Assembly (NCBI GenBank): GCA_950295325.1
Contig: OX485806.1
Location: 10,416,001-10,480,000 of the forward strand
Reading direction: 5' to 3'
Length of the DNA: 64,000 nt
From: Polytrichum commune
Taxonomy: Eukaryota > Streptophyta > Polytrichopsida > Polytrichales > Polytrichaceae
Below are positions 5,898 through 64,000 of the stretch, in pieces. The notes below the pieces were generated by a model, which saw nothing but the letters and a program-made list of their open reading frames with translations, did not search any database and was not told the DNA's origin. Every line of letters begins with the position of its first letter. Positions within the stretch are counted from its first letter, which is position 1. The position numbers were made by a program, and so were the translations under genes.

Positions 5898-7638
5898 ATG
5901 AGTCAACTATCATCCGCACGAGTGCCGGTAGGGTTCAGATTCCATCCCACCGATGAAGAATTGGTGGGATACTACCTCCCCAAGAAAGTGGGCGCCCTCA
6001 AGATCGACCTGGACCTCATCCGCGACTTGGATCTCTACAAGCTGGAGCCATGGGACCTGCAAGGTTAGATTCATTACTTCGATTAATTTCCAGACACACT
6101 GCCATTTCTCTCCATTGCTTGACATCACGAAGAATCTGTAAAGCCCATGGATACCTCTGTCAATTCCTCCTACAATGTTGTGTAACATCATTGGCATGTC
6201 GAGATATGAATATCTGTATTGTGTGTTCGTGTGTATGTCTATATGTGTGCATTGAAGGTGTTACTGATTATGTTGAGGTCATGTTGCCATGTGTGTTGAT
6301 GTTGGGTTATAACAGACCTTTGCAAGATTCAGTCAGACACAAATGAGAAGCAAACGGACTACTACTTCTTCAGCCGGAAGGACAAGAAATACCCTACAGG
6401 CAACCGGGCTAACCGTGCCACCACCAAAGGATTCTGGAAGGCAACTGGCCGGGACAAACCTATCCACACCAAGCTGCAAACCCTGATTGGCATGCGCAAA
6501 ACCCTTGTGTTCTATCAAGGCCGGGCTCCGCATGGGATGAAGACAGACTGGATCATGCACGAGTTTCGCCTCGACGATGGTCCTGGACGACCAGCTCATG
6601 TAAGTCGTCGTCCTCACACCATTGATACAACTCCCTAATTCTTATTCTTCTTGTGTAGAAAGAAAGCAACTTCGAGCTACCTTACCTTCGGTGACTGTTT
6701 CTCTTGCAAGCAATTCTTTGTCTTCACACCTATTTTCCTATTCTTTGGTAGCTAGCAACCTTTACCTTCGGTGACTGTCTTGCAAGTAATTCTTTGCTGC
6801 ACATTTATTTTGCCATTCTTATGTAGCAAGCAACCTCTACCTTTGGTGACTCTCTGTCTTGGAAGTAATTCTTGTCTCCACACCTATTTGCCATTCTTCT
6901 ACAGCTATGTAGCAACCTTTTACTTGAGTGACTGAAAGACTGTCTTGCAAGTTATTTGTTTGTCCCAACACCTATCTTTTTCCTATTCTTATACAGCTAG
7001 CAACCTCTACCTTCAGCGACTGGCTTTCTTGCCAGTAATTCTATGTCATTTCCTATTCTTCTTATACAGATATCAAAACTCTCTACCTTCAGTGACTGAC
7101 AGTCTTGCAAGTAATTCTTTGCTCCACACGTACTTACCTACTTCTGGAGCAAGCAACCTCTCTACCTTCGTTGACTGTCTGTCTGTCTATCTTTGATGCG
7201 GTTTCTTTGTCTCCAAACCAATCAAATTCCTACTCTTCTGCAGCTAGCAGCAACCTCTACCTTCGGCAACTGCTTGTCTGGGCTTCAAAGCAGTTCTTCA
7301 TCTCTAAAATAGGTAGGCATGGCTATCTTGGCCACTTCCTTTCCATCAAGAAGCAACTTATGCACATGATCTAACGAACTTTGCACGCGCTAAAATCGCA
7401 GGAAGATGGCGGCTGGGTGGTGTGTCGTGTCTTCAAGAAGAACAAGAACCTGAAGATGAAGACGCAAGAGAGGGCATGTTCATTCGAGGAACAGATAGGG
7501 TTACTTCCAGAGATGAGCTCACCGGACATTCTTTCAGGAGGTGGAAGTGGCACATGTAGCTATGGCTTCCCCAGCTTTAACCATCACCATAACTCATCTG
7601 GATATGGAAACAACAATCGCAACAACTTCAAGAACATC

Positions 7639-7669
<31 letters not shown>

Positions 7670-8139
7670 TCAAACAAGAGGTGATCAACCTGGATGAGTA
7701 CACCACCACTTCCGACCATCAGCACAACCAATACTTCCAAACCCCAATGCTCAAGATGGAGAACACCATTGCTCATTCTATGCCGTCCACCTCAGAGTAC
7801 CGGTGCTACTTGCACCGAACCCTGAGCTTGAAGAAAGATGACTATCTGATCGACCCTTATGTGGCCACCACCACCGAAACCTCATCTTTGAGTGACTTCA
7901 ACCAACAACAAGTGGACGATGAGGAGGCCATCTCGGGGCTGGAAAGTTTGGATTGGAATGCCTTGTGCGAAGCACCGGGGAGATCAGACCTACTTCGCCT
8001 CCCTGCAAATGCTTCCTCACCTGCTTTACCGAAGAATGTCGACCCTGCCCCGGTCCTCCTCCATCTCAAGCGCCAAAATTCAGATATCTTCTCGAGTCTG
8101 GAGCTCTGGAATTACAGCCAAATTGCACAAGAACTGTGA
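5898..8139 (+). CDS. NAC-domain transcription factor, VND/NST/SMB (VNS)-like, 3 exons
   Basis: Exons 5898-6063, 6316-6599 and 7402-8139 join in phase to give 395 aa. The start ATG is the Met directly before the NAC domain. Residues about 9-165 hold the five NAC subdomains: [11 protein letters not shown] (A), [20 protein letters not shown] (B), [14 protein letters not shown] then FWKATGRDK (C), [11 protein letters not shown] then WIMHEFRL (D) and [10 protein letters not shown] (E). Introns fall at the two conserved NAC positions. The IDLD...EPWDLQ block and the WVVCRVFKK end resemble the VND/NST/SMB/BRN class, which switches on secondary wall, water-conducting or root-cap cell fates in plants; the exact subgroup is inferred. 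The C-terminal half is an activation-type region with a ten-residue Asn run (AAC repeat near 7640-7670), an acidic [11 protein letters not shown] block and a terminal [11 protein letters not shown], similar to the Trp-containing tails of VND proteins. It acts in the nucleus as a dimeric DNA-binding factor. A tandem array fills intron 2. Confidence 0.93.
6655..7325 (+). repeat. Eight-unit tandem array in NAC intron 2
   Basis: Units of about 75-95 bp begin near 6660, 6751, 6825, 6908, 6996, 7068, 7149 and 7243. Each has AGCAACCTCTACCTTCGG, then TGACTGTCTTGCAAGTAATTC, then CACACCTATTT and a CCTATTCTT tract. Copies are 70-90% alike by eye. Several units carry a pyrimidine tract followed by ACAG or GCAG, so the array is a series of acceptor-like sites ahead of the real one at 7401. 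Confidence 0.85.
7636..7672 (+). repeat. AAC trinucleotide repeat coding poly-Asn
   Basis: Nearly perfect AAC repeat within NAC exon 3, translated as an Asn run between the DNA-binding domain and the C-terminal activation region. A likely length-variable site. Confidence 0.9.
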
Positions 8140-8937
8140 GCGCAAGGGGAATTTGTTTGGGGACGAGCTTGAACAAATGGATGGCATTATCATTTTCATC
8201 ATCGTCGTCATCCACCGGAACAACATAACCCCGGAGCTCTGCATACATCACCGCATCAATTGCAAGCGAAGCATCGACCGACTTGCGCCATCTTTTGCAT
8301 CAAGTAAAACAGGTAAACCACCATTGTACATGAAGCTGGAACACATCATCGAATGCAGGGAGTGAAGCATGCAGAGGCTTGTACAGAGGGAGAAGAAGAA
8401 GAAGAAGAAGAAGAAGACTTCGAGATCAAACTCGGCAAGACGAAATTCCATTGACAACATAATCTGCTATCTTTCGGGCTACCTCAAAATTCGGCTGCCA
8501 CTGATCATCCACTCGGAGTTACTTCAAGATAGCAACACAAATGCGTCTGCACCCTTGCTTTATCCTAGCTAGGATGCAATCAGTCAATCATGGTAAAGGA
8601 GTTACAGCTGAACTTTATACAGATTTGTGATTCAGAAGTTTGCATCGTCATTATCGTCATCATCATGTGTTGGGTGGTCTTCTTCATCAATGCATCGTTA
8701 GGGTTAGTCCACAGATTATAAACTAGAACAGGTCTGGTGAGGAGGTTGGATTAATGACCTTGGTCATAGTTTAGCATTAGGTCGGTCCTCCAGGTAGAAA
8801 TTGATCACAAACAGAAAGATTGTTAAATTACTGTACACAATTTATGCAGTTCCTCTGCTCTGCTCAATACTTTGCGGGGAGCGAGGACTGTTCATTTACA
8901 CTAACATCATCATCATCATCATCACCATCATCATAGC
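8140..8937. other. NAC 3' flank
   Basis: Probable 3'UTR and downstream DNA. An AAG-type repeat lies near 8390-8417 and a CAT repeat near 8907-8935. Reading frames here are low-complexity and were not taken as genes. No certain poly(A) signal was chosen. Confidence 0.4.
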
Positions 8938-9720
8938 TGCCACACATTGTGGATATTAGAAGATTGCTTGCAGCTTGTATCTTACTGATTTTGCAATTCA
9001 TCAGCGTGATCCATACAAGATTTATTTGTTTCACCCTCAAGCCTTCGAGGTTGTGATGCGTCTTTTTGATTGCAAGCTTTCTCTACAGTATGCCATGAAT
9101 CATGAAATGGTCAGATTGGCTCACAATCAAAACTGAGTTCATGATCCTAGCACCAAACATTGTGGGGATAGATTACATCTTGTATCACTCTGATTTTTCA
9201 ATTCACACTGGAACCATGATCATCAAACCTCTGAGGTTGTGACGCATCATTTCATTGCAAACTTTCTCTACATTTTGCCATGAAGCTTGACGCATAAAGT
9301 CTGGTACATAGTCAAAATTGAGTTCATGATCATAGCACCACACATTGTGAGGATAGATCCTTACATCTTGTATCCTACTTTAATTTTGATCAGACAATTG
9401 CTGCTTGTATGACCATAAATTGTTTTTGCAATTCATCAGCTTGGTGGATAGAGAAAATTGTTTCACCCTCTGTCACCAACCCTAAACCCAAATCTCCAAG
9501 GTTGTGATGCATCCTTGGAGTGCTTGTATCAGAATTCACAGTTGCATTTTGCATTCATTGGATTCATTTTGGCATCATCATTTCTTCCCCACATTGTGGA
9601 CATCATAAGATTGTTGCTTATATCATAACCATTTTATACCTCATCAGCTTCATCCATGGAATACTTGTTTGAAAGCTGTGATGCATCATTTAATTGCAAA
9701 CTCTCTCTAGCCGACATGAA
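8938..9720. repeat. Degenerate ~200-bp tandem array
   Basis: ACATTGTGG-type anchors occur at 8944, 9158, 9342 and 9591. They are followed in each unit by CTTGTATC, a TTTGCAATTCA-like string, a GAGGTTGTGATGC motif, a CAAACTTTCTCTAC motif and GAGTTCATGATC. Four diverged units with spacing of about 184-249 bp. No conserved reading frame. Confidence 0.75.
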
Positions 9721-10498
9721 GGATGGTGGGAGACTTGCAATTGAATTGGACAACTTAGACTGGGATTCAGGAAAACATGGAGGAAAGATATGTCCAAGAC
9801 CAGTAATCCAGATGAGAGTATTGTCCGATTAATTGGGGGAAGAAAACGAGTTGATGGAAACCCTAGTTATACATACTTTGAGAAGTAATGTGGTCGAAAC
9901 ATGGTAACATCACTCTAGGATGCGTATTTTTTATCAATAACATCGAATACATGCAATAAAAATGTGTAACTAGGGTGCAAGTAAATCTAGACAGAAGACT
10001 TATCCAAAAGCAACAATGCACATATGAGTATCGTTTGCACCGACAGTTGATACATACAGATCACAACCCTAATCATACATACTTTGAGAAGCAATGTGGT
10101 CAAATCATCACTACTCTAATTGTGTATGTTTCACAAGTAGCATAGTGTGCAATTGTAACGAGAACATGTTTGTAACATGAATTGTAAGTTGTCCACATTT
10201 AAAGGCTATTGCCATTCCTATTGTAGGACTGGTAAATTAAACTATGTATATATTATGCCCTTCATTCATGCATAAGTCCATATTACTCGATATCTAACAT
10301 GCTAAAAAAAGCCTAAGTCCAAAATTATTATATGTTGAATTCTATCATAGGATCTTCTGATAAAATTATATGGTAGGATCCTTTGATAGAATATGTGAAG
10401 TTAATTGGCCAATAATACTATGATGGTTTTTTTTCAATACATATCCTTTCATATCATAGATTTAACCTCAAAAATGGATATTTGGTTTTTCATATTTT
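9721..10498. other. AT-rich intergenic DNA
   Basis: No gene seen. Contains a short repeated phrase (AACCCTAGTTATACATACTTTGAGAAG near 9860 and a close match near 10070), suggesting another old local duplication. Confidence 0.4.
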
Positions 10499-10953
10499 AT
10501 TGGCTTTGTTTGTAGGACAGAGACTATGCATCGACTTCTATGTTTCAAGAGCAAATTTCCTAACCACTTTGCGTTCACACTTGGACGTTACTTGTTCCTA
10601 GTATTTTTGGTCCAATTTATTAAACGTGGATGATGAAAGCTTGCATACCTTGGACAACTAACCAACTAACTCAACTATTAGTTAACTAGTTGCTTTTCAT
10701 AACTATCGTTGTTCGCAATTTGACCTGCCAAAAAATGTAGTTAACTATACTTGTTCTAAAATTTAGTTAACTATAGTTGTATATGTCTAGTTAACTATAG
10801 TTGTTCCCTAGAATGTATTGAAAAAAACCTAATTGACTATAGGTGGTTATAGGTATAATAAATAACCATGGACTGGCATGAGCAAAGTGTACAACTACAA
10901 TTGTAGTCTTTCATAAGAAAGGACAGAGCCTCACGCTTCTACCGTTTTCTTGT
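10499..10953 (+). repeat. Dispersed repeat, copy 1 (family R450)
   Basis: About 455 bp, starting with TTGGCTTTGTTTGTAGGACA and ending with CCGTTTTCTTGTT. It has several internal TAGTTAACTATAGTTG palindromic motifs. The same sequence is present inverted at 14198-14653 and directly at 31133-31551. Ends are defined by where the three copies stop matching. Both ends contain a GGCTCTGT-like string in opposite orientation, which may be a short terminal inverted repeat. No target-site duplication could be assigned. Confidence 0.75.
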
Positions 10954-11280
10954 TATCATAACATTCGAGCTTTCACTAAGAATTTACATCTCTCTTTTGA
11001 AATTTAGATATATTGGAAGTGTATTGATAGATCCGGCCATAGAATTGAAGCAACCCAGAACTCTGATTTTCGAAAACATCTCTAGATTCACTTAAATAAG
11101 AATTCTTGGTTGTTTGCCACCTTATACTACTCGGATTCACGAGGTTCAATAATTTCATACGTCTACAAAATGTATCTAGAGAAGCCAAGATCAATCTCAA
11201 AAAGTTTTGGACCTAATCATGAATTGTTATGGATTAATCAAAGTCCAATCATAGTCTGCCACAAGAAGGTCACATAAGTC

Positions 11281-12044: not shown

Positions 12045-12052
12045 CAAGGGAC

Positions 12053-14197
12053 CCAACAAACAACTTGTATTATGGTTGTTCTATTGCTCTCGTCCAAGGA
12101 TTTCTCATGTAGCCCGCTTTTCCGTAACTTGAACCTATTGCAAGCTCAAGTCGTTGTTTGAATACGACTTAGATTCTATTTATTATGTCATTGCTATCAA
12201 TCGACATGGACAAGTTAAAATAAGTGCGATAGTGAATCCCACAAGTGCTTTTTTGCTTATTGTGATCGGTCACTTGACACATACCAAGATGGGACCACTT
12301 CCATGTAAAAGGAAATCACTTTTGGGAGTCCAACATTGAACTTAGGTGCACCCTTAAGGTAGAAATACCATAAACCATGAAAATAAGGTGATTCACATTG
12401 AAGATATGGTCTTAAAATTATGAGATAAGTTTCCAAGATAGAAGAGGAGGATTCATGAAGAATGCAAGTTGTTTCATATTTATATTCGTTGTAAAAAAAA
12501 ATCTACAATTTTTCAAAGTGGGAAGTTTGTCAAACCCCCTACTTGTTCACTAGATTCTTTTTAAATAGAACATAGTAATGCTCATTTCCACACAGAACAT
12601 CACCTAAACCAGTTAACTTATGACTATATTAAACTGTGATTGATGGTAGTCGAAGATGACTAAATTTGGCCAAACTGAATGTACACGCATTTCAAGTTGC
12701 CAACCTCGCAATTATTGGTTTCAAAATTGACACTTCACTATTTTGATGGAAGTCTACTGCATGGGTAGAGGGTAGTTCACGGTTTATGGTACTTCTACCT
12801 TTTTCGAATGTTTTTTTAGAATAAAAGTTTGCATTTAATCATCCATCAACCACTTTTGCGCCTCATAGGCATTTAAGAGTAGTTGAATTAGGTTCATTGA
12901 CCATATCATATGGTAACTTGTTCCATCCTTCTCAAGTTAGCTTCAATTCATGTACTAGATCAAAATTGGGGTATTGAATTACCTTGAGCTTCTAATCAAC
13001 AAGGGACTTGGCTTTTCCATGAACAACTTTGTCTTAAAATGAATTTTTAAAAGTAAGTAATCTTAGCTAGTTACTAGTTTTTCCATATTAAATTGAAATT
13101 TTCACTGAGCTTTCATTAAGCTTTCATTGAGTTTCACCGAACCTTATGACATGCATTACCCGGGCCCTATTACCACTCAGAGGTAATCTCCACCATGCAT
13201 GTATCTCATGATATGGGATAGAGTCAAGAAGGTGCTATGCAGGGAAAGTTCTACCCTGTGGATGACTTGAACATCGGATGCCAGTTGTTGTGTTGTAGTA
13301 TATTGACCTCTCCTCGTCTATAGCGCCCCCCGCCCCCCCCCCCCTACCTTATTCTAAGAGCGGAAGTTTACTTAGGTTCTAGATAGCTCTATCTAACTTT
13401 TTACATGAATCTCTAGTTGTATATAATTAACTTAGTTTTATCCATATTAGTTATCTAGTTTCCACATTCATCCACATACATCATTCATTCATCCAAGGAC
13501 AAACTATGAGCGATATATTTGTCATCCAATAATATATTTTCTCATCCACCAACTACGTTCATCCTTAAGCACCAACATCCAGGGCCAAAAGTGATCACAT
13601 AGACTCTACCCCTAATGCGATATAGAGCCAACAAAACTTATTAACCAACATACATTTTTCACCTCCAAGGCCTATTTAACACGACATTTTGATACTTTGA
13701 GGGCTTCTCACTTGCACAACATATATTGAATAATAAGCTACAGTTGCGAACTTAATAAGTAAATCTTGCATCAAGCAAAACTTTGGCTTGATGTGTGCCT
13801 TATATTGCATAACTAGTATACCATGTTGACCCCATAAGCTTCAACCAACCCTAACCCTAACGTGATTGAGGTGACGTGGCCGCCCCAAAGGGTGGCATTT
13901 CGGGAATAGGCTATAAGCCTCCTCCTCGACAAGTAAACAAATTTGATGCTTATCTATCTCATTAAATTGGGTTTTAAGTGTTGTTGGTGCACTAACATTA
14001 TAGAGCTACTGATTATAAAGATTGATACCATGAGAAATAGCATCAACAACAACTATAGAACGCTTGTATAAGAATCCTACTAGTGTGCCCTTGGGTCTCA
14101 TATTAGGTCCAATTTGCAAAAGCTTTTACCTATGAATTTCAAATATGATAGCACCTCAACCTACTAAAATATCAGAAAATATAGATGAAATTCAATT
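12053..14197. other. AT-rich intergenic DNA
   Basis: No gene supported; open frames are short. Contains a C-rich run near 13326-13344 and a short telomere-like CCCTAACCCTAA string near 13848. The rest is unclassified decayed sequence. Confidence 0.4.
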
Positions 14198-14653
14198 AAC
14201 AAGAAAACGGCAAAACCGTGAGGCTTTGTCATTTCTTATGAAAGACTATAATTATAGTTGTACACTTTGCTCATGCCAGTTCATGGTTATTTATTATATC
14301 TATAACCATTTTTTTTTCAATTAGATTTTTTTCCAATACATTTTAGGGAACAACTATAGTTAACTAGACATATATAACTATAGTGAACTAGATTCTAGAA
14401 CAACTATAATTGACTATGTTTTTTGGTTGGTCAAATCGCGAACAACTATAGTTACAAAAGGCAACTAGTTAATTAATAATTGAGTTGGTTGGTTAGTTGT
14501 CCAAGGTATGCAAGCTTTCACTATTCACGTTAAATAAATTGAACCAAAAATAGCAAGAACAAGTAATGTGCAAGTGTGAACGCAAAATGGTTAGGAAATT
14601 TGCTCTTGAAACATAGAAGTCGATGCATAATCTTTGTCCTACAAACAAAGCCG
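14198..14653 (-). repeat. Dispersed repeat, copy 2 (family R450), inverted
   Basis: Reverse-oriented partner of 10499-10953, matching along nearly its whole length: AACAAGAAAACGG at its left, the TAGTTAACTA palindromes in the middle, and TCCTACAAACAAAGCC at its right. Together the two copies bracket 3.2 kb including the hAT-like element, so the pair could also be the long inverted ends of one composite element. The third copy at 31133-31551 stands alone, which favours independent insertions. Confidence 0.75.
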
Positions 14654-15925
14654 ACAAAGCCCACAAGGAATACATGCATTTTGCCACACTTGGGCTTCTT
14701 ACGCATTTAGGGGTTAAAGAAGCCTTATTTAAAGACTACATTGAGCAATTGGCTTTTAAGCATTATGAGGCCTTTATAGGGGATGTATCCGTATGGGGAT
14801 ACTATTCATTAAACCTTTCCCCCTCCCCTCCATGTACGGCAATGTATGCCAACAAATTCATCCATATTTACGGTACCTAATAGAAACAAGTGTAGAGGAG
14901 GGCGAAGAACCAAGTTGTGACATGTAACTTAAGGTTCCATGTGAATGTCACTAAGTTAACTATAGTTCATTAGAACTCAATGGAAGAAACTACATACAAC
15001 TACATGGAACCGTAGTTAACTCCCACTCTACAAGATAAGGCATTGGAGGTGGTGGGGAGCTATACATGAGAAATTACACCTAGTCCATTTAAATGGCATT
15101 GGAGTTAACTTAAGTAAACTACAATAAAGATGATATTTATTGTCCCTTCCTATTCGGAATTATGCAATGTTAGATACATTTTATTGTATATCTCTTGTTC
15201 CACCAACAAATGTGAATTTGGTAGTTTGGGCATTTTAGAGCATCAATAACTTTACTTGGCAAAAATCTACATCAGTAGTATAGATCCAAGTAGTAAGTTT
15301 TACTAAATATCATATTTAGTGTAGACTTTCATGTAAGGAAGTACATAGATACTATGTACTTTGTAAGCTAAGTCTCACGCCCTAATTACACCGAAGTTTC
15401 TGTCCGGTTGTAATCGTGAAATTGCTGAAGATTAAATTAAGAAATAGATGTTGGCCCGCCACTTTTCACACTATTACAGTCGGAGATGCCGATGGACGGT
15501 ACCATAACTTGCCGATGTGATCAGTCCCTCACTCTTAAAAATAAGGTGCGTTATTGGAGGGAAGGATTAAAAACTTTCATCCATATGTATCTTTAACCAA
15601 AAGGACTTTTTGCTATTTGTAGAGAGTTACACTTGACGACATTGGATGTGGTGGTGGGGGGGGGGGGTCGATCATGTGGGGTATGTTGCAAGTGAAGCAT
15701 CCGGTAAGGTAAGTTAAGCCTTATCCGGTAAGTCACTCCAATACAAGACAAATTTAACGCAAAGTGGCCGAGGTGTGACGCATTTTTAACGCGAAGCAAA
15801 CCAAGAGTGATAAATTTCTTTAAAGCTCCCAAAGCGTGACTTCCGCATGTGGGGAGATTCTCGGGAATACTTATCCTAAGTTAGTCTTGGAGCTTATTCC
15901 ATCTTTATTTACTACTGACGGAATG
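14654..15925. other. Intergenic DNA upstream of heme oxygenase promoter
   Basis: No gene supported. Contains a G-run at 15654-15667. Low-similarity motifs (for example GTAGTAAGTTTTACTAAATA near 15285) recur elsewhere in the window. Confidence 0.4.
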
Positions 15926-16790: not shown

Positions 16791-19553
16791 ATGATGGCGT
16801 TGGCGGTAGGGGAGCTCGGCGTATGCCTCGGTGGAGGAGGAGGAGCGGGGGGATCATCTTTCGCACCCGCTTCTTCCGTTCGAGAGAAGATCGTTTGCCA
16901 AAATGGCTGTAACAGCAAATCTGTGCACATGCGGTCCAGCAAACCCTTGCAGAAGAATAGGGTGGAGCTTCGTACTCCAAATTGGTTTGGGAGAGTGTTA
17001 GGGTTTGGAGTAGTGGAAACACCGTCAGCTTCCATATCAACGAGGTGCGGGGCTCGAGCGTCGTCGTCGGCCGAAGCACCGGAGAAGCCGAAGCAGCAGA
17101 GGTACCCTGGGGAGAACAAGGGGTTTGTGGAGGAGATGCGGTTTGTAGCCATGCGCCTGCACACCAAAGATCAAGCTAAGGAAGGGGAGAAGGAGAAGCC
17201 GGCTGATGTGCAGCCTGTGGGGAAGTGGGAGCCTACGGTGGAGGGATACCTCAAGTTTCTTGTGGACAGCAAGAAGGTTTATGATACCATGGAGACAATT
17301 GTCGCCAAAGCCACGCATCCCTCATGTAAGTTTCACCTTTCTCCTCCATGTCGTATTGCCATCTTGCAGTTTTGATAATGGATAAGGAAAGAGTGGAATT
17401 CTTTAACCCTATCTACAATCTCATAGTTGAAGTGAAAGTTTGGTCAGTGTTCTACTTAAAAGAATTGATAGGCTTCTGACAACAGAGCTCCCTAAATGTA
17501 AAGGTGGCAGACTATCAAATTCAAATGTGTCCGATGACCTATGTAATCTGCAGCCTTTACCCTCAGATGGTTTATGAAGAGAAAAATTCTTTCTATTTTG
17601 CATCTGCATTCATTTTGGGATCTTGCAGTTATGATAGAATTCGGGAGTCCTATCTGCAATCGCTTGATTGAAGTGAACGAGTGGTTATATTCTACTTAGA
17701 GATTTGGTAGGCTCCTGAAAACAGACCCTCAATTGGTATCAAAACTCTTATCAAATGAAATTTGTCCGATGACCTAAATCATCTGCAGCTCTACCCTCAC
17801 CCAATTTTATGGGGAGAAAATTTTTGGTTTTATGTTGGCATTTCCGTTATTAGTGTTGGTTACGATTGCCGTCCTTCTAAGTCCGTGTAGTTGGCGACTC
17901 GTCATAGCCTCCACATCGTATGAACATCTTGGCAGTTTGTGATGGAGGAGGGTCGGTCGAACGGAAGAGTGGGAATCTGTGGTTGAAGTGAAAGAGAGGT
18001 CACTGTTCTACTTAGAGATTTGATAGACTTCTAGACCCAGAGCTTCCCCAATTCAAAGGTGACAAAAGTTTTATCAATTCAAATTTGTCTAATGACTTAC
18101 ATAGTATGCAGCCCTTACCCTCAGATGATCTATGGAGAGCAACCAAGGTTTTGTTGCTTCATCATCTTGTTCAATTTGGCATCCCCAGCCTTAGTGTTGG
18201 TTATGTTTACCTCCCTTCATGTCAGTGCAAGTGGCCACCTCAACACCTGCTAGTGCTTTTGATTTGCTTCCTGTACTAACAAAGATTGCTCATGATTGCA
18301 GATGAGCTTTTCAGGAACACTGGGTTGGAGCGCGCAGAAAAGCTAGCAAAGGATTTGGAGTGGTTTTCGAGCCAAGGTCACACCATTCCTGAGCCCGGGC
18401 CAGCTGGAACATCGTATTCTGAATTGTTAACGGAACTCTCTGAAACAAATGTGCCTGCTTTCATTTGCCACTTTTACAACGTCTACTTTGCGCATTCAGC
18501 TGGTGGAAAGTTCATTGGAAAGAAGGTGTGTGCAATGCTATATCCAAGTTGAAAGCCAGGATCCAGTGTGTTTGTATTGAGAGTTCTCCTATGTTGTGTT
18601 TTGAAGAAAGATGGAGGTCTCAAGTCTTAGGGAATAACAATTGGGTGCTCTTGGATCAGTTTCAAGCTGACCTGTTGGGGGGTTTTGGTTGAGTTTTATG
18701 AGACTAGGAACCTCTTGTAGACCCTTTTGGTCATCACAAATGCAGTACACTCAACGGTGAACTCAATTGGAAAATATTTAAAAGGCAAGAAAGTCATGGT
18801 GTGCTGCAGAGGCAAGGGTAATAGGAGGTATCACAGACACCCCATTATTAACTTTCTATTTGAGTTACAAACTCTTTCTCCATCGATTTTGAGGTGGGTG
18901 CGATGTGGACATGTTGTTGGTACAGGTTGCAGAGATGATACTGGATGGAAGAGAGCTAGAATTCTACAAGTGGGATGGGGAGCTTTCTGAACTTTTGGCT
19001 GCAGTGAAGGCCAATTTGAATAAAGTTGCGGAGGTGAGAACAATGAACTGTGTCCTTTTATCTTTTCATCAGGATGCTGGGATTTGGAAGAGTATATGTG
19101 TAACAAATGATAGCAGACTAGTGATATACGAGGACTGTAAGGTTTTTCTTGGTATGACACTTTATATTTGCCAAGTACAATATATATACAGAGCTCTTGT
19201 GGAAACAAGTGAGAGCATGTATCTCTCATTTTCGAGTTGGTGTGTTAACAGGAGGTTTTGGAATGTCTTTTAAAGTTTCATAGGAATGTAGCATCTCTGC
19301 ATTTTGAAGGCTTCCTTTTACGTTGGATCTCATAGTTGCTTATTTTCCATCCACTTTAGAATGTTGAATATTTGTGTCAATTTTCCAACCACATCACAAC
19401 ATGTGAACATTATCAGGTCACTCTGAACCTGAGCAATTTGTAATGTATGATTTCCAGGAATGGACAAGGGAAGAGAAGAACAAGTGTTTGGAGGAAACAG
19501 AAAACTCCTTCAAGTATTCTGGAAAGATCTTGCGTGAAATCATCTCTCAATAG
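16791..19553 (+). CDS. HO1: Plastid heme oxygenase 1 (HY1-type), 4 exons
   Basis: Exons 16791-17325, 18302-18525, 18926-19033 and 19458-19553 join in phase to give 320 aa. It opens heme to biliverdin IXalpha with ferredoxin-derived electrons in the plastid, the first step toward the phytochrome chromophore. Residues 1 to about 95 are Ser/Gly/Arg-rich and low in acidic residues, a typical transit peptide. The haem-ligating proximal His is H124 in [15 protein letters not shown]. The distal-helix signature [14 protein letters not shown] ends at G247, and the family-wide [11 protein letters not shown] block follows in exon 3. The C-terminus (EEWTREEKN...FKYSG) matches plant HO1 to the last residues. 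Length is slightly above the roughly 280 aa usual in flowering plants because of the long transit peptide. All catalytic landmarks are intact. Two adjacent ATGs open the frame; the first is used here. It is the HO1 rather than HO2 type, since the His ligand is retained. Confidence 0.96.
17341..18260 (+). repeat. Three-unit tandem array in HO1 intron 1
   Basis: Units begin near 17363, 17622 and 17928 with (A)TCTTG(G)CAGTT. Each contains GTTGAAGTGAA, TCTACTTAGAGATTTG(A/G)TAG, AATTTGTC(C/T)GATGAC, a CTGCAGC...TACCCTCA string and TATGGGAG-type sequence. Spacing is about 260 and 306 bp. The third unit runs into the sequence preceding the true acceptor at 18301. Almost the whole 976-bp intron is built from this unit. 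Confidence 0.85.
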
Positions 19554-48838: not shown

Positions 48839-48856
48839 GGCTTCACCACTTCACTC

Positions 48857-49720: not shown

Positions 49721-49723
<3 letters not shown>

Positions 49724-49757
<34 letters not shown>
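49724..49757. repeat. (CT)n microsatellite
   Basis: About 17 CT dinucleotides in an unbroken tract at the distal end of the promoter array. Confidence 0.9.
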
Positions 49758-49759
<2 letters not shown>

Positions 49760-50622: not shown

Positions 50623-51210
50623 GGTGTTAAGTTACTCCTAGATCCTTCTAAAATGCAAGCTTTGCCGAGGATTTTGACTCATCAGGGGCTTACTTACTTT
50701 CTTAATATCAGATGACTCCAAGATCCCAGTGACGAAAAGGATTAAGTGATATATCCAATGTCGCAAGTGCTCAGCAACAACACTTATTCGAGACAAAATC
50801 GTTGCCATGATGCATGATGGGTAAGTTAGAGTCCCGTGTGACATGGAGCCACATGATTCTATCTCCTGGCAAGGGTTAAGTCATTGGCGCTGAAATAAGA
50901 CATTTATATTTCGACATAGGTTTGCTACCAGATCCTTTCAAGCTTTACCTTGGATTTCTCACTCAGGGGCTTGCTTACTTGAATTCAGATGACACCCGGA
51001 TTCCACGAAAAGGTTAAGTGATCATATCCAATTTCGCAAGTTCTCATCAACTTACTTATTCGAGACAGAATCGTTCCGTGATGCACGATGGGTAAATTAG
51101 AGTCCGCTGTGGCATGGAATCACATGATTCAATTTTCTGGCAGCCTGTGATGGTGAGAAGCTGTTTTGATGTGATAAGGGTCAAGTTAAGTCATTGGGGC
51201 CGAAAGAAAG
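50623..51210 (+). repeat. Two-unit tandem duplication in ENGase promoter
   Basis: Units begin near 50631 and 50921 (period about 290). Shared: AGATCCTT..AAnGCTTT, CTCA(T/C)CAGGGGCTTnCTTACTT, TCAGATGAC, AAAAGG.TTAAGTGAT, ATATCCAAT.TCGCAAGT, ACTTATTCGAGAC, GATGGGTAA.TTAGAGTCC and AAGTTAAGTCATTGG. The second unit ends about 30 bp before the first candidate ATG of ENGase. Confidence 0.85.
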
Positions 51211-51243: not shown

Positions 51244-54200
51244 ATGTATAATTCCCTCCGAGCGAGCATACTGCGGAGACGAAAGCTCAAGTGGGTGTTA
51301 CAGCAAGCCAGGAGGTGGGTTTTTGCTTTCACTGAGAGGTTGTTCAGATTTTGGCGGATCGTTCGTTGGTGTGCTCCAAACATGGCAAACTCGGATTCAG
51401 ATTTGGCTCCGTTTCCACATCCACATTCAGATGGGGGCCTCCCCATTGCCTTTCCACTCACCACTTTGGAAGAGCTGAAGGAGAGAAGATATCTTTCCTG
51501 CCCCAATTTGGAGTTCCTCAAAAGCTCAGTTCCATTGAGGGATGGCTACAGTGGGCATGTGAAGCGGCCGCAGTTGCTTGTGTGCCATGACTACAAAGGA
51601 GGCTACCAAGAGGACAAATGGGTACAAGGGAAGCTGGGAATGGAAGGATACCATCTTTGGCACTGGCACTTGATCGATGTGTTTGTGTATTTCTCACATT
51701 CACTTGTCACAGTGCCGCCCCCGGGATGGATCAACGCTGCCCACAAGCATGGAGTTCCGGTAACTCGAGTCTGGGGGTTTGATTTCAGCTTTTCTTTTCG
51801 TGGATGTATGTCTCTCTTGTAATATGTTGAAATGATGATGTTTTTGTCATCGTTTATATGTGTTTCACATGTGATAGGTTCTAGGAACATTCATCACGGA
51901 ATGGGACCATGGTGCGTCCGTGTGCCGCGCTCTCCTCAGCGATGGAGAAACATCTTGTTTGTTCGCCTCTCGCCTTGCAGAGTTGGCTGATGTCTTGGGC
52001 TTCGATGGATGGTTGGTAAGCCTGCATCCATCCTCTCGTAAAGTTGTGCTTCCAATTCAATTAGAGTAGGTTTGAAATTTTTTTGAGTTTGTGTGTGCCC
52101 ATCTTGATGGGCAGATCAAGATGTCTTGGGCTTCAATGGGCGGTAGGTAAGCCATCTTATCCTCTCTCAACCTTGTGCTTTTGAATCATTCTTGTACATT
52201 TTGTTTTGAGGGGGATGTAAAGGTGTGTATCGTGAAGTCAGACTATGAGGAGGATCTCAGCCTTGGAAGTTACACACAGAGTTGTCAAGCTTCAACCTTA
52301 AGATTCAGGAGAGAAAAAGATGATACTGTTGTTCACATCCTTATCCTTCTGAAATGTCGGAAAGAAGCTTAGAGTAATAACCAGGAAGAGAAGGTTTGAA
52401 GAATTTTGAGTTTGTGTATGCCCATCTTGGTGGGCATGCCAAGCTGTCTTGGTCTTCAATGACTTGTAGGTAATCCAGCTGACAGTAGAGTATATCGTGA
52501 CATATTAAATGACTTGGGCTTTAATCCTCTCTCCACCTTCTGCTTTGATTCATTCTTGTGAATTTTGTTGTTGTATGGGCGCTCAAAACAAGATGTACAA
52601 GAATGAATGAAGAGCACAATGTTGAGAGAGGATGTCTGGTATCCTGAAGTCAGAATGCCAGGAGGATCTCAGCCTTGGAAGTTACATACTTAATAATCAA
52701 GCTCAGAGTTCAAGATTGACGAGAGGAGAAAAAAGATGATGCTACTGTAGACTCTTTGTCCACTAGATGAGGTGGGCTTGGTCACATCCTTCTGGAATGT
52801 TGGAAAGAAACTTGGTGTAACAGCTAGGAAGATTGGGTTTAAAGAAGTTTGATGAGTTTGTGTATTCACATCTTGATGGGCAGATCAACATCGAGAATCG
52901 GGTGGACGAGAAGGATATGCCGCGTCTACATCTTTTTGTGCAGCATCTTAGACATTGCATGCATGCTCTGATACCCAACTCTATCGTCATATGGTAAACA
53001 CCTCACCAGTTTTGGTCCTCTTGCCATGGTTTTGGTTGTATTGAACTGTTTTCTATACATCCAACCACAGCAGAATCTTTGCTCTGCAAATTTCATCTGT
53101 CCTTTGGACTTTTTGTGATAATTCTTCTGAGGGACCCCTGTTGTGTAGGTACGATGCAGTGACAGAAGAAGGTAAGCTGGACTGGCAAAATTGCTTGAAC
53201 GAGAAGAACCGGTTCTTCTTTGTTGACAGTGATGGTCTCTTTACCAACTACACTTGGAAGGTATGTTTTTACCATTTCTTCTGGCAAATTTTCAACATGA
53301 AAGCAAAATGTGAATCAGCAGAGTGGTCTCACTCTTAAAGATTGAAGAAGTAATTCTCATAGACGGACTATGATGTGGAAGAAGAACAAAGTTTCCTTGG
53401 TTGAAACTTTTCCATCAATCTACTCATAGCCGAACCAACCTTGCATCAAATTTCTGCAAGATGTATCAGTTGACCTCAAATGGTACAACACTTGCACACT
53501 AACGTGAGTTATGAATGTCAAGAGCAGGAAGAAATGGCCAAGTCAAGTGCAATTGCAGCTGGTGTAAGGGCAGCTGATGTGTATATGGGGGTGGATGTCT
53601 TTGGCCGCAACACCTTTGGTGGGGGTGGGTTCCAGGTATGCATATCATATACCAATTCTGGGTTTAAACCATACATGATTTGGTAAAATACATGCAGGGT
53701 CATAATCATAATTCACATGTAGATCTTCTTGCCTAGTTATCCTGTTATTCTTTGGGTACCTCTGTCTGTCTAGGCTTTCACATATAGTCCTGTTATATAA
53801 CATTCTTAAGTCGCCTGTTTTTTGTTTCAATGCAAATGGATTAATTCTCTGGTAATCCGGATCACCTAAGAATGATTCCATTGGGAACGCACCTCTTCAA
53901 TTGAACCCTAAACCCTAAACCTTAAACCCTAAAACTCTAACCCTAAACCTTGATTGTTGAGACTTTATCCTTGAAGCTAGAATAGTATGAGCACATCCTT
54001 ACACATGCTTAAGAATTCTATGTATCAGGATGAATTCTGGCATGACAACATTGATATAATATTTTGGCTGCATCTTTCAAAGGGTTTCTATTGTTGGGAG
54101 GGGGGCCATGCAGTGTGATGTAGCATTGAAGGCATCACGCAAAGCTGATGTGTCAGCAGCTCTATTTGCGCCGGCATGGGTTCTTGAAAGCAATCAACCC

Positions 54201-57200
54201 CCCTCTTTTGAGATTGCCCAGACCAGGTAAGTGAAAAGCATCCATCCCTCCAGCTAAGTGTTGGTGGTTATCATCTTTGTGAGAGGTGTTCGAGTAGAGT
54301 TCATAATCTGTTCTTTGTATATTTCTTTGCATTTGGTTTGAACGATCATTTGTTTCTTACATCAGAGCTTGAGGGCCCATGACCATCAAAATGTAAAACA
54401 TCTCATTGGTGGAAAATTCTGAGACTGTCCCATTTCACTTGACATCAGAGCTTGAGGGTCTAAGGGACCAAGGTAGTTTAAGTGGATGAAAAACCTACAA
54501 CGAGTCCTACATGGCATGCAATGGTTAATGATTCATGGTCTACTGGATTGTGCATCAAGCCCACCTTAAAGAGCTGGGTCTAACACAAAACTAGGAGACC
54601 ATGACACTTCAAAATCTCACAACCATGATTTATTATAAATTATTCTGTAAAAGGGTCCATATAAATAGGACGGTACCTAACAAAATAGTATATGGTGTAG
54701 AGCCTGGTTGCGTAGGTCTTTTCACTACACTTGAATGCCTGTGACCACATGAAATTCAAATTCAATTGTCCATGCTACACCCCTTCGGATGAGTCTCAAG
54801 GGCCCTCACAATTTTATGATCATGGCCCTTGGCCATAGTGTAAAGTGGCCCTTAGTAGAATCACACTTGTTCATTCCCTTTGAGGAAGTTGAATTATCTT
54901 TGGTGGCAATGTCTTCTTGTTCGCAAATTGATGTGCTGATTGTGATAATAATCTTACAGATGGTGGGGCACCATTGAGCGATGTTGGCCAGTGACGCGCT
55001 TCAATCCGACAACTCTTCCATTCTTTTCTGACTTCAATCGAGTTGAGTCCTGGTCTCTTGGGACATAGCGCTGTAATTTCCACAATGTCCATCTCAATCC
55101 AGAAATAAATAATGTAAAATGAGTTTGCGGCTTTCTGAGTATGATTGTCATAAATTATATGTCCAGATCCCGCTCTCAGAGGTTTAGCTCTCTAATGGGC
55201 TTACTCCTACGCGGTTGGAGGGAACAGGGCTGTGGAAATCTTGTATCTGTGGAAGGAGAGGAAGTCTCAAATCAACCATGGTTCAATCTTTCGTGCCAGA
55301 GCTTGCAGGTAACACTTGTGTGGGTCACCAAAGATTGTGCATTCCTTGTCTGCATTTTAACTGCTATGACTCAATGACATTTGAGTCACACCTCCACTTT
55401 CTCTCATCCATTGTTTGTGCATTTACAGCCATTGCTACATGTGATGTCTAATTCACAAATGGAGCAGAGTCTGGTGCAAAGCAGCATAAGGTGCTCTTTC
55501 CTTTCCACCTGATGATATCCATACTTATAGACCTTATTGAGGGAACTTCTATTACACTTAAGCATATTGACCATTTTGCAAAACTTGTCAAGTCTGGATA
55601 CTCTGTGTTAAAAAGCACATGACAGCCTTTCCAACCCAGATGGTTTACCTTTATAAAAATGGACACTTTAAACTCTGCATTTTCTCCCTGTAGGTCACTT
55701 AAACACGCAATTTGTACAAGACGATTAGCAAATCCAAATTGACGCTGTAGTTATTTTCCTTATTATTTTTTAGTTCATAAGGCTTATCATATTGAGAGAA
55801 CTCTATGATAAGACTTCTTATATTGATCATAGAGTCCTCCCAATTATGTGCACCATTGAACTTAAACTTGCTAACAGATGTTGAGCACTTAGTCCAATCT
55901 CTTTTAGACACATGTCCTTTTTGATGTCCGTTCTTGATTCCACGCTTAACCACTCACCACTCATGTATAGGTCTCTGATTAAGACAAGTAACTGATTTAG
56001 GCCTGCTTACCTTACAGGCACCATAGGTTCCAATTTACCAAAGCTTTTGTGCAGGGCGCTGCCAAGGCATATTAAGTGAAAACTGTCTTGTGGACAAGAT
56101 ACACCACTTAGTGCTCAGTACTTATTTTAACCCAATCGATGATGTGGCAGTCATGAGGCAGCGTATAGTGGAGGATCATGCCTTAAAATATATGGATCTG
56201 ATGGTATAGGCGTTGTACAACTCTATGAAGCCCACGTTCCTGTTGCTGGAAGCCCCATCCACATTTCGCACTCAGTAAGTACATGGCAAACTATCACAGC
56301 TTTTATTTTCAGGTTGATTCAATACTAAAGTCTATGTCAATTTAGCTTCAGAAGTGCTGGATAAATTCATCTACACAGAACGGCTCAAAGGGTTGCTAAT
56401 ACGCCGAGTACACACATGCTATGGCTATTTGGAAGATGGCTTTGAGTATTGACTTGTGCTAAGGGCCACTTTACACTACAGCCAAGGGCCTTGATCAACC
56501 ATGGAATTGTGAGGGCCCGCGAAACTCATCTGAAGGCTGTACCATGGACAACTGAAATTGAATTTTGTGTGGTCATGGGTCTTCAAGTGTAGTGTTTACA
56601 TACGCAACGGGGATCTCACCCAAATGCTCTTTCATTACCATCCTATTCTATTAATGTAGGCCCTTCCAAACAATAAGTTTTACTAAATCTAGGGTTGTGA
56701 GATTTTGAAGTGTCATTCTCTCCGGGTTATGTGTTACACCCACCTCTTTGAGGTGGACTTCGTAGACCATGAAACATCATTATCTATTGCATGCCATGGA
56801 GGACTCCATGTATGCTTGTTCATCCATTCAAACTTCCTTGGTCCCTTAGGCCCTCAAGCTCTAGTGTAAAGTGAAGTGGGCCAGTCTTGGCATTTTTGAT
56901 GAATGAGAGATATTAGATTTCAATGGTCACGGACCCTCAAGCTATTGTGTAAAGTGCCCATAACACTAACTTTAAATCAATTCCATCCGCAGTAGAGATT
57001 AAGAATCATCACGAAGCTTGTGGGTGGACTCATTTTCAAAGCAGCGAAGTTTGTAAAGGTACAAACTATGGTTGCCTGTCTGTGCAGGTACTACTTGAGA
57101 CCAGACTCCAAGTCTGCTTGGCGTTGAGAATATCCAGGGACAACTCATGGTTTCTGGTGTTATTAGTGGGAGATAACGAGGATATCCATATACCTCTATC

Positions 57201-57960: not shown

Positions 57961-57971
57961 AGCAAGCCTAA

Positions 57972-58290
57972 GGGCCAACTTACACTATGGCTAAGGGGTG
58001 TGACCATAAAAATTGTGAGTGCCCTTGAAAAAGCATGCAAAGGCTCTACCATGAAAAGTTGAAACTGGATTTTGTGTGGAAACAGGCCTTTCAGTGTAGT
58101 GTAAGGAGATATGCGACCGGGTTATCAACTGAATGCTATTTCATTACTATCTTATTCTATTCATGTGGGCCCTTGTACACAATGAGTTGTAATAAATCAA
58201 GGGTTGTGAGGTTTTGAAGTGTCATGGTCTCCTGGTTTTGTTATAGACCTACCACTTTGAGGTGGGCTGGATGCAAAATCCAGTAAAGGG
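57972..58290. mobile_element. Harbinger-like MITE, copy F (truncated)
   Basis: Starts at TAA/GGGCCAACTTACACTATGG eleven bases after the ENGase stop codon, oriented like copy E. It matches for about 320 bp up to CACTTTGAGGTGGGC and then stops. It must form part of the ENGase 3'UTR or terminator region. Confidence 0.7.
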
Positions 58291-60030: not shown

Positions 60031-62070
60031 TCAATCATCGGATTCGAACAAGCCATTTGGTCCTGCAAAACCAAAATCGTCTCAATAAACTGTGGTAGGT
60101 GTTTTTGCCAGATTTATGAAATTGTTCATGAATTTGGGCCTTAGGGTGACTTTGACATACCTCTATCACTTAACCCCAAGCTGATTCACTTTGTTGCAAA
60201 TTATTATATGTTTCCCAAACTGTAGGAATTTGGTGCTTCAGCTTTGGAGATAGTTGCAAATTGAATAGGACAGAGAATTGGATGATGGAGACTCTTACCC
60301 CATGGAAACTCCTTGTTGCGGATGTGTAAATATGAGTAGTCCTGCAACACAGAAACATGTCAATTGCATGCAACTTCACATTCAGATGAATTCAGAATAT
60401 CTACCCTTGTTCCAGACCATATAATGTCATTGTTGGAACTTAAAGTTTGAAAACTTTGGTATTGATTAAGGATTCTAGCCAAACATGAATTATTCCCAGG
60501 TGTCTCTGAACTAAGTTTCATCAGGGCTAGGTATGTGAATAGCTGTGCTATATAATTATTATCGTTGTCAGTTGCCGGTAGAAAATTTGGGAGTGGTATC
60601 TGATCAAAGATTCTAACCAAACAAAAAATATTCCCAAGTGTCTTTGATTTAAGTTTCATCTAGTCTAGGTAGGTGACAAAGTTGTCATTTACAGGTGGCA
60701 AAATCTGGGAATGGTCTTGATCAGAGATATTAACCAAACAGAACACATCCCAGGTGTCTTTAACTTTAATTTTCTCTGTGTTTAGGTATGTGACATAGCT
60801 GTCCAAAACATTGTCATTGTTGTCGCTTACAGGTAGAAAAGTTTGGGAGCGTTTATGATCACAGATTCTAACCAAACAGAAAGTATTCCCAAGTGTCTCT
60901 GTATTAAGTTTCATCTGGTCTAGGTGTGTGACAAAGTTGCAATGCATTTATAAGAGCTGGAAAGAGATGGGAAAAGAAGAAGCCAGATGAGTTTGATTAC
61001 CGGTCTTTCTTCGGCCACATGGTGTTCTTCACCTGAGAAAGTTTGGAATATCATTCCCACACATCCGCACGCTGCTGCAATAGTGATGTTCCTCCATTTG
61101 TAGGTCTCCTCTACATACACAGCAAATGTCACCAGTGATTAATTAAGTGATCAAACCGGAAGCCAGTCGAAAAATGAACCCAACTTAGTAATAGAATGGA
61201 GGAGGGTGTATGGCATAATGTTTTCCTACTGAAAGCGATTTCATTTCAGAAAGCTGTGTCCTGTGCTGGTTGAGCATTTGACAAGTTTCTCCTATTGGTG
61301 CAATCCGTGGAGTGGAGACAAACAGTTTATGAATTCTAGTGAAAAGGTTGCCTAAAAGTAAATTGCCTCTTACAAATCCTCTTCCATGCTTTGCTCTCGA
61401 GATTATCGCCGGTTCCACGTAGAAACTACAATCAAAATAACACCAAAGAAAGTAAACTACAACCAACTACTCGCAACTACTCCCAATTACACTTCGTGTC
61501 GTAGTTGGGCAAAATAGAGTAGTTGTGGGTGTGGTTGTGGTTGTCATCAATGCTTCTTATCCCTCCTTATCCCTCACAAACAAAAGCAAAGAAAGTTAAC
61601 TACAATCATCATCGCAACTACTCCCAACAACACCTTATATCGTAGTTGGGCAAGGTAAGAGTACTTGTGGTTTCAGTTGTCAACAATGCACCTTATCTCT
61701 TCTTATCCTTCAAAAACAAAATCAAAGAGAGTAAACCACAACCATCGTCACAACTACTCCTAACTACACCTTGTATTGTAGTTGGGCAAGGAAAGATCAA
61801 TTGTGGTTGTGGTTGTCATCAATGCACCTCATTCCTCCTTATCCCTCAAAAACATAGAACCAGAGAAAGTAAACTACAACATCAACCACCAAAACAAGGC
61901 ATTGAAGAATTGACAAGATATGGATTTATTGTAAGGAATTAAAGAAAGGTGTCACCAGCATCATCATGGCCGTGGCCTCCCATGAAGCGCTTGGCTATGG
62001 TGGAGGAAGGGTGAGTATGTTTGAGAGGCAACAACAATGCACCAAATCGCTGTCTCAACGCAGTCGCCAT
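60031..62070 (-). CDS. COX6A: Cytochrome c oxidase subunit 6a, 4 exons
   Basis: Minus-strand exons 62070-61956, 61110-61001, 60341-60299 and 60062-60031 join in phase to 99 aa, the usual length in plants. The small coding pieces are easily missed because the introns are 845, 659 and 236 bp. Residues 1 to about 30 (MATALRQRFGALLLP...) form an Arg/Ser-rich mitochondrial presequence. A His/Gly/Asp-rich GGHGHDDAEETYKWRNIT block follows, matching the HHDDAYETAKW region of plant COX6a. One transmembrane helix spans about 48-62 (IAAACGCVGMIFQTF). The intermembrane-space tail has the signature YLHIRNKEFPWGPNGLFE and ends SDD. It is a nuclear-encoded peripheral subunit of respiratory complex IV in the inner mitochondrial membrane, thought to stabilise the complex and tune activity. 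All conserved positions are present. Both large introns hold tandem arrays. Confidence 0.93.
60400..60935. repeat. Four-unit tandem array in COX6A intron 2
   Basis: TCCCA(A/G)GTGTCT followed by TAAGTTTCATC and TAGGT(A/G)(T/G)GTGAC occurs near 60492, 60631, 60745 and 60886. Between them are GATCAnAGAT.nTAACCAAACA and GGTAGAAAA.TTTGGGA motifs. Units of about 115-140 bp. Some units stay open on the minus strand and give a repeating peptide-like reading, but they lie wholly within an intron. Confidence 0.8.
61425..61905. repeat. About 3.5-unit tandem array in COX6A intron 1
   Basis: GTAGTTGGGCAA occurs at 61501, 61642 and 61779 (period about 137-141). Each is preceded by AAAGTAAACTACAA..CAACTACTCC.AA.ACACCTT and followed by TGTGGTTGT..TTGTCATCAATGC.CCT and TATCCCTC..AAAACA. 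Each unit holds an internal AACTAC/GTAGTT inverted pair. Confidence 0.85.
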
Positions 62071-62734: not shown

Positions 62735-63600
62735 CTGCAAATTGGTGACTGTCTTGCCAAGGAGTCGAGCAGTGTACAAAATGATGAGACACTGATTATG
62801 AAAACACCGGTTTCTTATGCAGAGAAGCTTAGTCTAATTTTCCAATATCCTCATTTCCAAAGGTATGGATTGGCAGAAACGTATGATTCGGTGAGCAGGC
62901 AGGAATTCCAATTTTAATTCCAAATACAGTCTGATGTACAGTAGCTGTAAATTGACGAATCTCTTGCGGCAGATTATTGCAACCTGACATGGGTGGTGCA
63001 CGATGAACAAGCCCGTGAACTGTTCAATTTGATGAAATAATGATCACGAAAGTGCTCATGCCCTGCCCATGTGAGGGATTGACGATGGTTTACGAGACGC
63101 TACTCTACATTCCGAATGTCTGGATTGGCAGCAACGTAGTCGGCAATCATGCAGGCAAGCATGTTGATGTGCAATACCTGCAAGTTGGCGAATGTCTTGA
63201 CATGGAGTCAGAACAACCTCAATGCATGACCAAGCTTTAGTGTCTGATACTACGACTCCACGTGGCACATAGCAACCTGCCATTGGTGGTGCAAGATGAA
63301 GAAACCCTTAGAATTGTAGAAATTGATGAAACACTGATTACAGCACTGCCAAACCCTGCCAAAACCCTGCTAAATGAAACAACGGTCACCTATGCGAGAG
63401 ACAAATTGATGTGTGTCGGAGAAGCTTAGTCAACTCTGCCGATATCCTCAACCCAAATGTCTGGATTAGCAGCACATAGTCGGCATGCAGGCAAGCATGT
63501 TGATATGCAATACCTGCAAATTGGCGAATGTCGTGACATGGAGTCGGAACAATCTCAATGCATGACCAAGCTTAACGTCTGATACAACGAGAGATGTTTG
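62735..63600 (-). pseudogene. Tandem decayed copies of the cytosine deaminase 3' end
   Basis: Three diverged stretches resemble 63610-63720, the stop-proximal coding end and flank of the deaminase. The anchors are GAAGCTTAGTCTA..TTCC.ATATCCTCATT near 62824 and 63429, and ATGTCTGGATT(G/A)GCAGC with (G)TAGTCGGC near 63116 and 63460. Copies also share GCATGTTGAT.TGCAATACCTGCAA.TTGGCGAATGTC..GACATGGAGTC and CTCAATGCATGACCAAGCTT at 63164-63237 and 63499-63575. Frames are broken. They are best read as remnants of repeated local duplication of the gene's tail. Confidence 0.7.
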
Positions 63601-63623
63601 ATGTTTGATATTTTCGGAGTAGC

Positions 63624-64000
63624 TTAGTCTACTCTTCCGATATCCTCATTCCAGATGTCTGGATTGGCGGCCACATAGTCGGCCAGCATACCAACGCATT
63701 CTACAGACTGCAGGTCGATCACCTTAACCCCAGCGCTTTCTCGGAGCCATTCGACGCCGCCGCCCTGGAAATTGACGGACTCGCCAACAACGAGAGTTCC
63801 GATACCGAATTGTCGCACAAGGCCACTACAGTACCAGCATGGTGCGAGCGTGGTAACCATGATCGTGTCGCGGTAGCTGCGATGTCGTCGGCCTGCCTTG
63901 CGGAACGCATCGGTCTCCGCGTGCATGGACGGGTCGTTCTCTTGAACACGTCGGTTGTGGCCTCGGCTTAAGAGATTTAAACCTGCGTTGTCAAACATCG
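63624..64000 (-). CDS. Cytosine deaminase (FCY1-like), 5' end beyond window
   Basis: Minus strand, stop at 63624-63626, open to the right edge; at least 124 codons are visible with no intron. The Met at 63998 is probably internal, because family members have about 30 more residues before the FD.xG..LLxRGHN motif. The zinc site is intact: His-Ala-Glu in SMHAETDAF (His ligand, Glu proton shuttle) and PCWYC (two Cys ligands). Downstream, GESVNFQGG and NPDIWNEDIG match the yeast-type cytosine deaminase signature, distinguishing it from guanine deaminase, tRNA adenosine deaminase and cytidine deaminase. Predicted reaction: cytosine plus water to uracil plus ammonia, pyrimidine salvage. Coding DNA here is GC-richer than its surroundings. 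Such enzymes are widespread in fungi and bacteria and not usual in flowering plants, so lateral origin is possible. Tandem remnants of its tail lie downstream. Confidence 0.88.
   Translation of the reverse strand, partial: MFDNAGLNLLSRGHNRRVQENDPSMHAETDAFRKAGRRHRSYRDTIMVTTLAPCWYCSGLVRQFGIGTLVVGESVNFQGGGVEWLRESAGVKVIDLQSVECVGMLADYVAANPDIWNEDIGRVD

Follow-up and report, generated by a model that had tools for sequence, protein, structure and literature searches.

Introns and gene flanks in a 64,000-bp stretch of the genome of the moss Polytrichum commune (assembly GCA_950295325.1, contig OX485806.1, positions 10,416,001 to 10,480,000 of the forward strand; the whole stretch is called the window below) carry many arrays of diverged direct repeats, and these arrays probably represent repeated local direct tandem duplication of ordinary DNA in pieces of about 50-400 bp, not one mobile element. 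The observation of gene-associated local arrays is real and extends to the genome. Growth of plant introns and promoters is usually ascribed to transposon insertion. Our data suggest that local duplication, not jumping genes alone, made much of the non-coding DNA here: local self-duplication, which standard tandem-repeat software mostly misses, accounts for 24% of the intron bases in the window and, taken as array spans, for 33% of the bases in the NAC-family introns measured.

The data are from one assembly of 407.8 Mb in 64 contigs, corresponding to about 7 chromosomes (six contigs of 42-78 Mb and a seventh, C3, of at least 57.9 Mb). Gene names were obtained through Pfam (bromodomain/BET gene, exonuclease, ENGase, deaminase), through a genome-wide NAM search (NAC) and through matches to solved structures (HO1, deaminase), while one further gene is presumably COX6A, as judged from reading its translation. 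Splice sites were located, and the gene models were made by hand.

Local direct repeats in the window

In a sensitive self-alignment of the window, direct repeats whose copies lie within 1 kb of each other form 14 clusters, which together take up 6778 of the 64000 bases (10.6%). Among pairs of at least 45 bits and at most 1 kb apart, 38 were direct and 2 inverted (3 when one self-palindrome is counted), and the 13 other NAC loci of the genome gave 20 direct and 0 inverted pairs, an orientation which rules out inverted-repeat transposons as the source. Chance is ruled out as well, since 20 dinucleotide-preserving block shuffles of the window produced no pair at 40 bits or more. An assembly artefact was judged unlikely, because the copies are mostly only 70-80% identical.

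The clusters are unevenly distributed. With the hand-made gene models they cover 24.4% of intron bases (3477/14238) and 13.9% of flanks within 2 kb (2811/20151), against 1.8% of the remaining DNA (389/21350) and 1.2% of coding sequence (101/8261), where the covered part lies at exon edges. Circular shifts of the arrays gave p = 0.001 for introns alone, 0.002 when flanks are included and 0.019 for the depletion in coding sequence. A first-pass annotation of the window had described exons as spared apart from copied edges, which agrees with these figures, and all the array sites it had named were recovered (NAC intron 2, HO1 intron 1, exonuclease intron 1 and promoter, ENGase promoter and intron 2, COX6A introns 1 and 2, and the deaminase 3' flank). 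Its statement that nearly every gene carries an array needs a correction at the bromodomain gene, where the roughly 3.6 kb separating the first long exon from the last are free of clusters. In the ENGase stretch beyond 53 kb, copies of a dispersed family are found in place of clusters.

Arrays in the NAC family and across the genome

The genome contains 14 NAC genes, identified via 28 exon matches of the NAM model. Intron 2 could be delimited in nine of them, and five, including the NAC gene of the window, have arrays in it. None of the 10 pairs of array-bearing genes, and none of the 36 pairs among all nine, showed intron-2 similarity above the shuffled maximum, and the intron-2 arrays therefore arose separately in the same intron. 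The comparison with the nearest paralogue (L041) is in line with this. The two genes encode nearly the same protein in exon 2, with identities of 0.95, 1.00 and 0.56 at the three codon positions. The window gene has an intron 2 of 802 bp with about 8 units of about 77 bp, and the paralogue has one of 761 bp composed mostly of units of about 52 bp, about 12 by eye (offsets 104 and 213). The best local score between these introns was 21, with a shuffled mean of 26.5 and 200 of 200 shuffles at or above the score. Since the introns cannot be aligned, yet copies within the arrays are about 71-79% alike, the arrays either post-date the gene duplication or have been homogenised since, and the different unit periods favour a separate origin.

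In NAC intron 1, 2 of 28 pairs were clearly above the shuffles and 4 more slightly above; shared units were rejected there, as the two strongest pairs are trinucleotide runs. Of the 23 NAC-family introns, arrays were present in 8 of the 14 that measure at least 600 bp and in none of the nine shorter ones, which is partly expected because short introns have less room. A heme oxygenase model search gave no match and missed HO1 itself too; no HO1 paralogue was obtained.

Taken together, the 14 NAC loci are 11.4% covered (5190/45354), or 10.9% without the locus of the window, and eight of them have a cluster. For the genome at large, a spaced sample of 20 stretches of 10 kb was taken in 5-Mb steps on two chromosomes. 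Local direct repeats amounted to a mean of 600 bp per stretch (6.0%), with a median of 457 and non-zero values in 14 of 20, and the number of clusters per 10 kb was 1.30 in this sample (26 clusters), 2.19 in the window and 2.61 at the 13 other NAC loci. Inverted pairs numbered 22 in the spaced sample, 10 of them in one stretch (L013).

The groups also differ in the divergence of the copies. Best-pair identity in the window and the 13 other NAC loci was 70-80% in 22 of 25 clusters, at least 80% in three and at least 90% in none, while of the 26 clusters of the spaced sample 8 were at 70-80%, 15 at 80% or above and 3 at 90% or above. When the spaced stretches that contain a host gene are added to the gene-linked group, identities of at least 80% occur in 7 of 38 gene-linked clusters and in 11 of the 13 others (p = 4e-5 by Fisher's test and 1.4e-4 by the Mann-Whitney test), a contrast which depends on coarse group labels and was noticed after seeing the data. 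One stretch (L014) was placed in the non-gene group, its array overlapping a retroelement domain. In simulated duplications of 100-300 bp, 40 of 40 were detected up to 15% divergence, and detection dropped from about 25% divergence for 100-bp units and from 30-35% for longer ones. Under steady births about half of the clusters would be expected at 80% identity or more, and by a hand estimate 3 of 25 then has a probability of about 8e-5. The gene-linked arrays thus look like an older cohort, and that nearly all of them are only 70-80% identical indicates activity in the past more than at present.

Between copies, 17-18% of the aligned sites are different, and the transition/transversion ratio is 0.94-1.12 in all four groups; this ratio leaves methylation-driven decay unsupported as the cause of the missing young arrays. 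Gap openings are about fourfold more frequent in gene-linked arrays (2.6-3.1 per 100 sites) than in other stretches (0.7), which age does not fully explain.

Individual arrays and dispersed sequence

Ten of the arrays, all but those at 1137-1733, 9859-10108, HO1 intron 1 and 32530-32848, were searched against the whole genome. Seven proved locus-specific, with no substantial match elsewhere in the 408-Mb genome in a search that skips very common words, for which reason a missing match is no proof of rarity. When 13 arrays were compared with each other on both strands (78 pairs, giving 156 comparisons), 2 results were slightly above the best of 20 shuffles. Together with the 0 of 10 related pairs for NAC intron 2, this means that related units between loci, as expected from a single transposon family, were not observed. 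The annotation had called the units unrelated between genes and had proposed a recurring local process instead of one transposon family. The seven locus-specific arrays and the unrelated intron-2 arrays in five NAC genes speak for this proposal. The remaining three arrays contain dispersed sequence, an outcome of the kind that the annotation had named as counting against it, and the unrelatedness therefore holds between genes and not wholly with respect to the genome.

At the NAC gene the intron 2 array (6675-7276, plus strand, in the intron at 6600-7401) has about 7-8 units of about 77-80 bp and matched only itself in the genome. By eye only, splice-like motifs are seen inside these units. 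Downstream of the gene, diverged direct repeats at 8926-9709 have offsets of 186, 439 and 647 and only three 30-bp matches elsewhere. A stretch of about 80-90 bp at 10309-10395 recurs in about 36 of the 42 matches listed genome-wide, with 81-88% identity (best 40 of 399 candidates), and is probably a short dispersed element. A dispersed family of about 460 bp, 81-91% identical and in both orientations, is found at 10496-10955, 14197-14658 and 31131-31551. In HO1 intron 1 (about 17326-18301) the array extends over 17408-18142 on the plus strand, with pairs 73-77% identical. The further clusters (1137-1733, 9859-10108 and 32530-32848) come from self-comparison.

The remaining locus-specific arrays lie between 48 and 64 kb. 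The exonuclease promoter array (48925-49729, minus strand) has matches elsewhere only to an embedded rRNA-like insert, and a 26-bp repeat in this promoter (48836-48861 with 49171-49196) extends to the start codon. The insert (49314-49500) contains a large-subunit rRNA fragment (Rfam RF02543 at 49349-49500); its 127-bp stretch at 49314-49440 occurs in full length at nine other places in the genome with 93-95% identity, and contig C7 has a tandem array of a related stretch. A two-copy repeat in the ENGase promoter (50656-51142, plus strand) has an offset of 283 and 81% identity. COX6A intron 2 (60342-61000) has an array at 60425-60939 on the minus strand with offsets of 137, 255 and 387, and the genome search gave one candidate only. 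The repeats in the cytosine deaminase 3' flank (62822-63689, minus strand) have one 82-bp match elsewhere. The closest solved structures to the deaminase gene itself (63624-63998) are cytosine deaminases (best E 4e-21). To our knowledge such an enzyme is unusual for land plants, and a horizontal transfer is possible.

The arrays with dispersed sequence are found in COX6A intron 1, upstream of the bromodomain/BET gene and in exonuclease intron 1. The COX6A array (61434-61884, minus strand) has a period of about 140 and lies in the intron at 61111-61955; it shares part of its span with a dispersed element (61289-61611), of which the best 40 of 496 candidates were scored. The two-copy repeat upstream of the bromodomain gene (30335-30907, offset 297) has a dispersed element of about 180 bp inside it (30431-30612; best 40 of 442 candidates scored), and the two-copy repeat of exonuclease intron 1 (46655-47391, minus strand, offset 379, intron 46326-47476) has relatives at three other places in the genome with 80-84% identity.

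The ENGase intron 2 array (51989-52891, plus strand, intron 52016-52883) is also locus-specific and resembles a tandem copy of the whole intron. Both splice sites are contained in the copy, the donor preceded by the tail of exon 2 and the acceptor followed by the head of exon 3, so that the intron, to judge from its sequence, was copied together with both exon edges. Units of the deaminase array likewise contain the last codons and the stop codon (63624). In these two arrays the ends of units thus seem to ignore gene structure. Copied exon edges as a general rule were ruled out: 32 exon-edge tests on 8 introns gave three at the floor p of 0.0033, all of them in ENGase intron 2, and two further tests at p 0.027 and 0.037, the former being a borderline COX6A intron 1 donor. 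Donor-like sites are present at the copied exon 2 edges of this ENGase intron, where the head of exon 3 joined to the tail of exon 2 might in principle be spliced in as a cryptic exon of some 32 bp. A second dispersed family, about 500 bp long and 64-76% identical (54357-54855, 56459-56952, 57968-58285, 44782-45113 and 33327-33829), is represented by three copies within the ENGase gene or immediately after it.

Origin of the arrays and comparison with known systems

Direct, local units that seem able to ignore gene structure point to break repair in which the stretch between two ends is copied. For rice such repair has been proposed, and in plants it is reported to follow paired nicks (as cited in PMC8355091 and PMC7464560). 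A break or a nearby pair of nicks may thus have been repaired with the stretch between the ends copied twice. Arrays of 8-12 units require a second step such as unequal exchange, which could have acted on the new repeat and added copies, up to about 8 in NAC intron 2 and about 12 by eye in its paralogue. Selection would then have removed copies in coding sequence, as the distribution suggests, with survivors in introns and flanks and at exon edges only, and the copies are seen to have diverged since, by small indels and point changes. Most events near genes appear to be old, and the process thus seems to have been more active there formerly than recently. The annotation had named replication slippage, which fits poorly with median repeat offsets of 248-290 bp and with the whole-intron copies of ENGase. 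Filler DNA at a break could account for the rRNA-like fragment (RF02543) of the exonuclease promoter array, which as a single case is suggestive only.

Several observations weigh against local duplication near genes as the general explanation. The eight spaced stretches with a host gene are 8.6% covered and the other 12 4.3% (p = 0.18), with a label that depends on a Pfam match on 30 of 40 codon-biased segments, misses genes and in one stretch (L011) uses a match below the family cut-off. The genic contrast is therefore weak outside the window and the NAC loci: equal density in genes and in random DNA is not what was found in the window, and NAC loci are denser than spaced stretches, but among the random stretches those with genes do not differ significantly in density from the rest. 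Counted by cluster, 12 of the 14 in the window lie near genes, a borderline excess (p = 0.052). A copied exon edge is convincing in one of six array introns (ENGase intron 2) and in none of the other five, and the junctions are too diverged for microhomology to be read. To these are added the six long NAC-family introns (among 14 that reach 600 bp) that have no array, the dispersed sequence in three of the ten arrays searched, and the density given by Tandem Repeats Finder (TRF), which is 26,875 bp/Mb in the window and 30,395 bp/Mb in the spaced stretches, with no excess in the window.

The TRF values also bear on the explanation that plant genomes in general hold as many old intronic duplications, missed by standard tools at 70-80% identity. 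This neutral background is a serious possibility, if short of an even one, and is compatible with local duplication. At periods of at least 60, TRF gave a row in only three of the 14 window clusters (2.1-3.3 copies each) and none in the other 11, with densities (bp/Mb) of 14,297 for the window, 20,565 for the spaced stretches and 29,468 for the 13 NAC loci. In a survey of 31 plants and algae, tandem repeats average 13,209 bp/Mb outside two outliers (42,059 and 55,454), obtained with other software and settings than ours, and are commoner near gene ends in dicots and monocots (PMC3887541). Few gene-linked arrays are young, however, which is unexpected for a steady background. The dispersed sequence in COX6A intron 1, upstream of the bromodomain gene and in exonuclease intron 1 could mean that the arrays are pieces of dispersed repeats, either with internal tandem repeats or inserted next to each other. 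This applies to three of the ten arrays and hardly to the seven lacking a substantial match elsewhere, and the ENGase and deaminase units hold edges of host exons, so that we regard it as an unlikely source of the arrays as a whole. Finally, the concentration of arrays in introns and promoters of the window, and their separate presence in the same intron of several NAC genes, might be taken as signs of maintenance by selection, for example of splicing or transcription enhancers with copy number mattering. We find this highly improbable, as the units are unrelated between genes, the site differences, the frequency of gap openings (about 3 in 100 sites) and a transition/transversion ratio close to 1 are as drift predicts, and the long NAC introns without an array speak against it.

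If repeated local tandem duplication is accepted as the origin, it is tempting to speculate further that this lineage had a pulse of gene-biased duplication which built many long introns and has since faded near genes, introns of at least 600 bp being often long via self-duplication, separately in each paralogue. We put this forward tentatively, as something that may well prove wrong. In the open-access literature searched, we did not find the pattern described in a moss. Homology-based gene targeting is easy in the model species of the mosses (PMC4990234). With one intron filled independently in five NAC genes, such duplication would become measurable in mosses as to its rate, its age and its mechanism.

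Local direct tandem duplications were reportedly attributed to break repair by Vaughn and Bennetzen in 2014 for rice and by Schiml et al. in 2016 for paired single-strand breaks, and those events are said to be young or induced, with readable junctions. The copies described here are likewise local, direct and in tandem, but they are mostly 70-80% identical, some arrays reach 8-12 units and, in the window, they are concentrated in introns. Minisatellites and variable number tandem repeats also have head-to-tail units, some with many copies, and are commoner near gene ends in dicots and monocots (PMC3887541); the units here are different in being mostly few, long, strongly diverged and missed by TRF. 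Fill-in of complementary overhangs by Pol alpha-primase/CST likewise gives direct small tandem duplications, but these were shown at Cas9-induced breaks in cultured cells such as RPE1-hTERT (PMC8355091). The likeness to the VvmybA1 promoter of Teinturier grape lies in the duplication of a long unit in a gene promoter, in that case 408 bp, amplified to three and five copies. The grape copies are perfect, recent, confined to one locus and linked to berry colour (PMC7464560), while in the moss a genome-wide pattern of old copies is observed.

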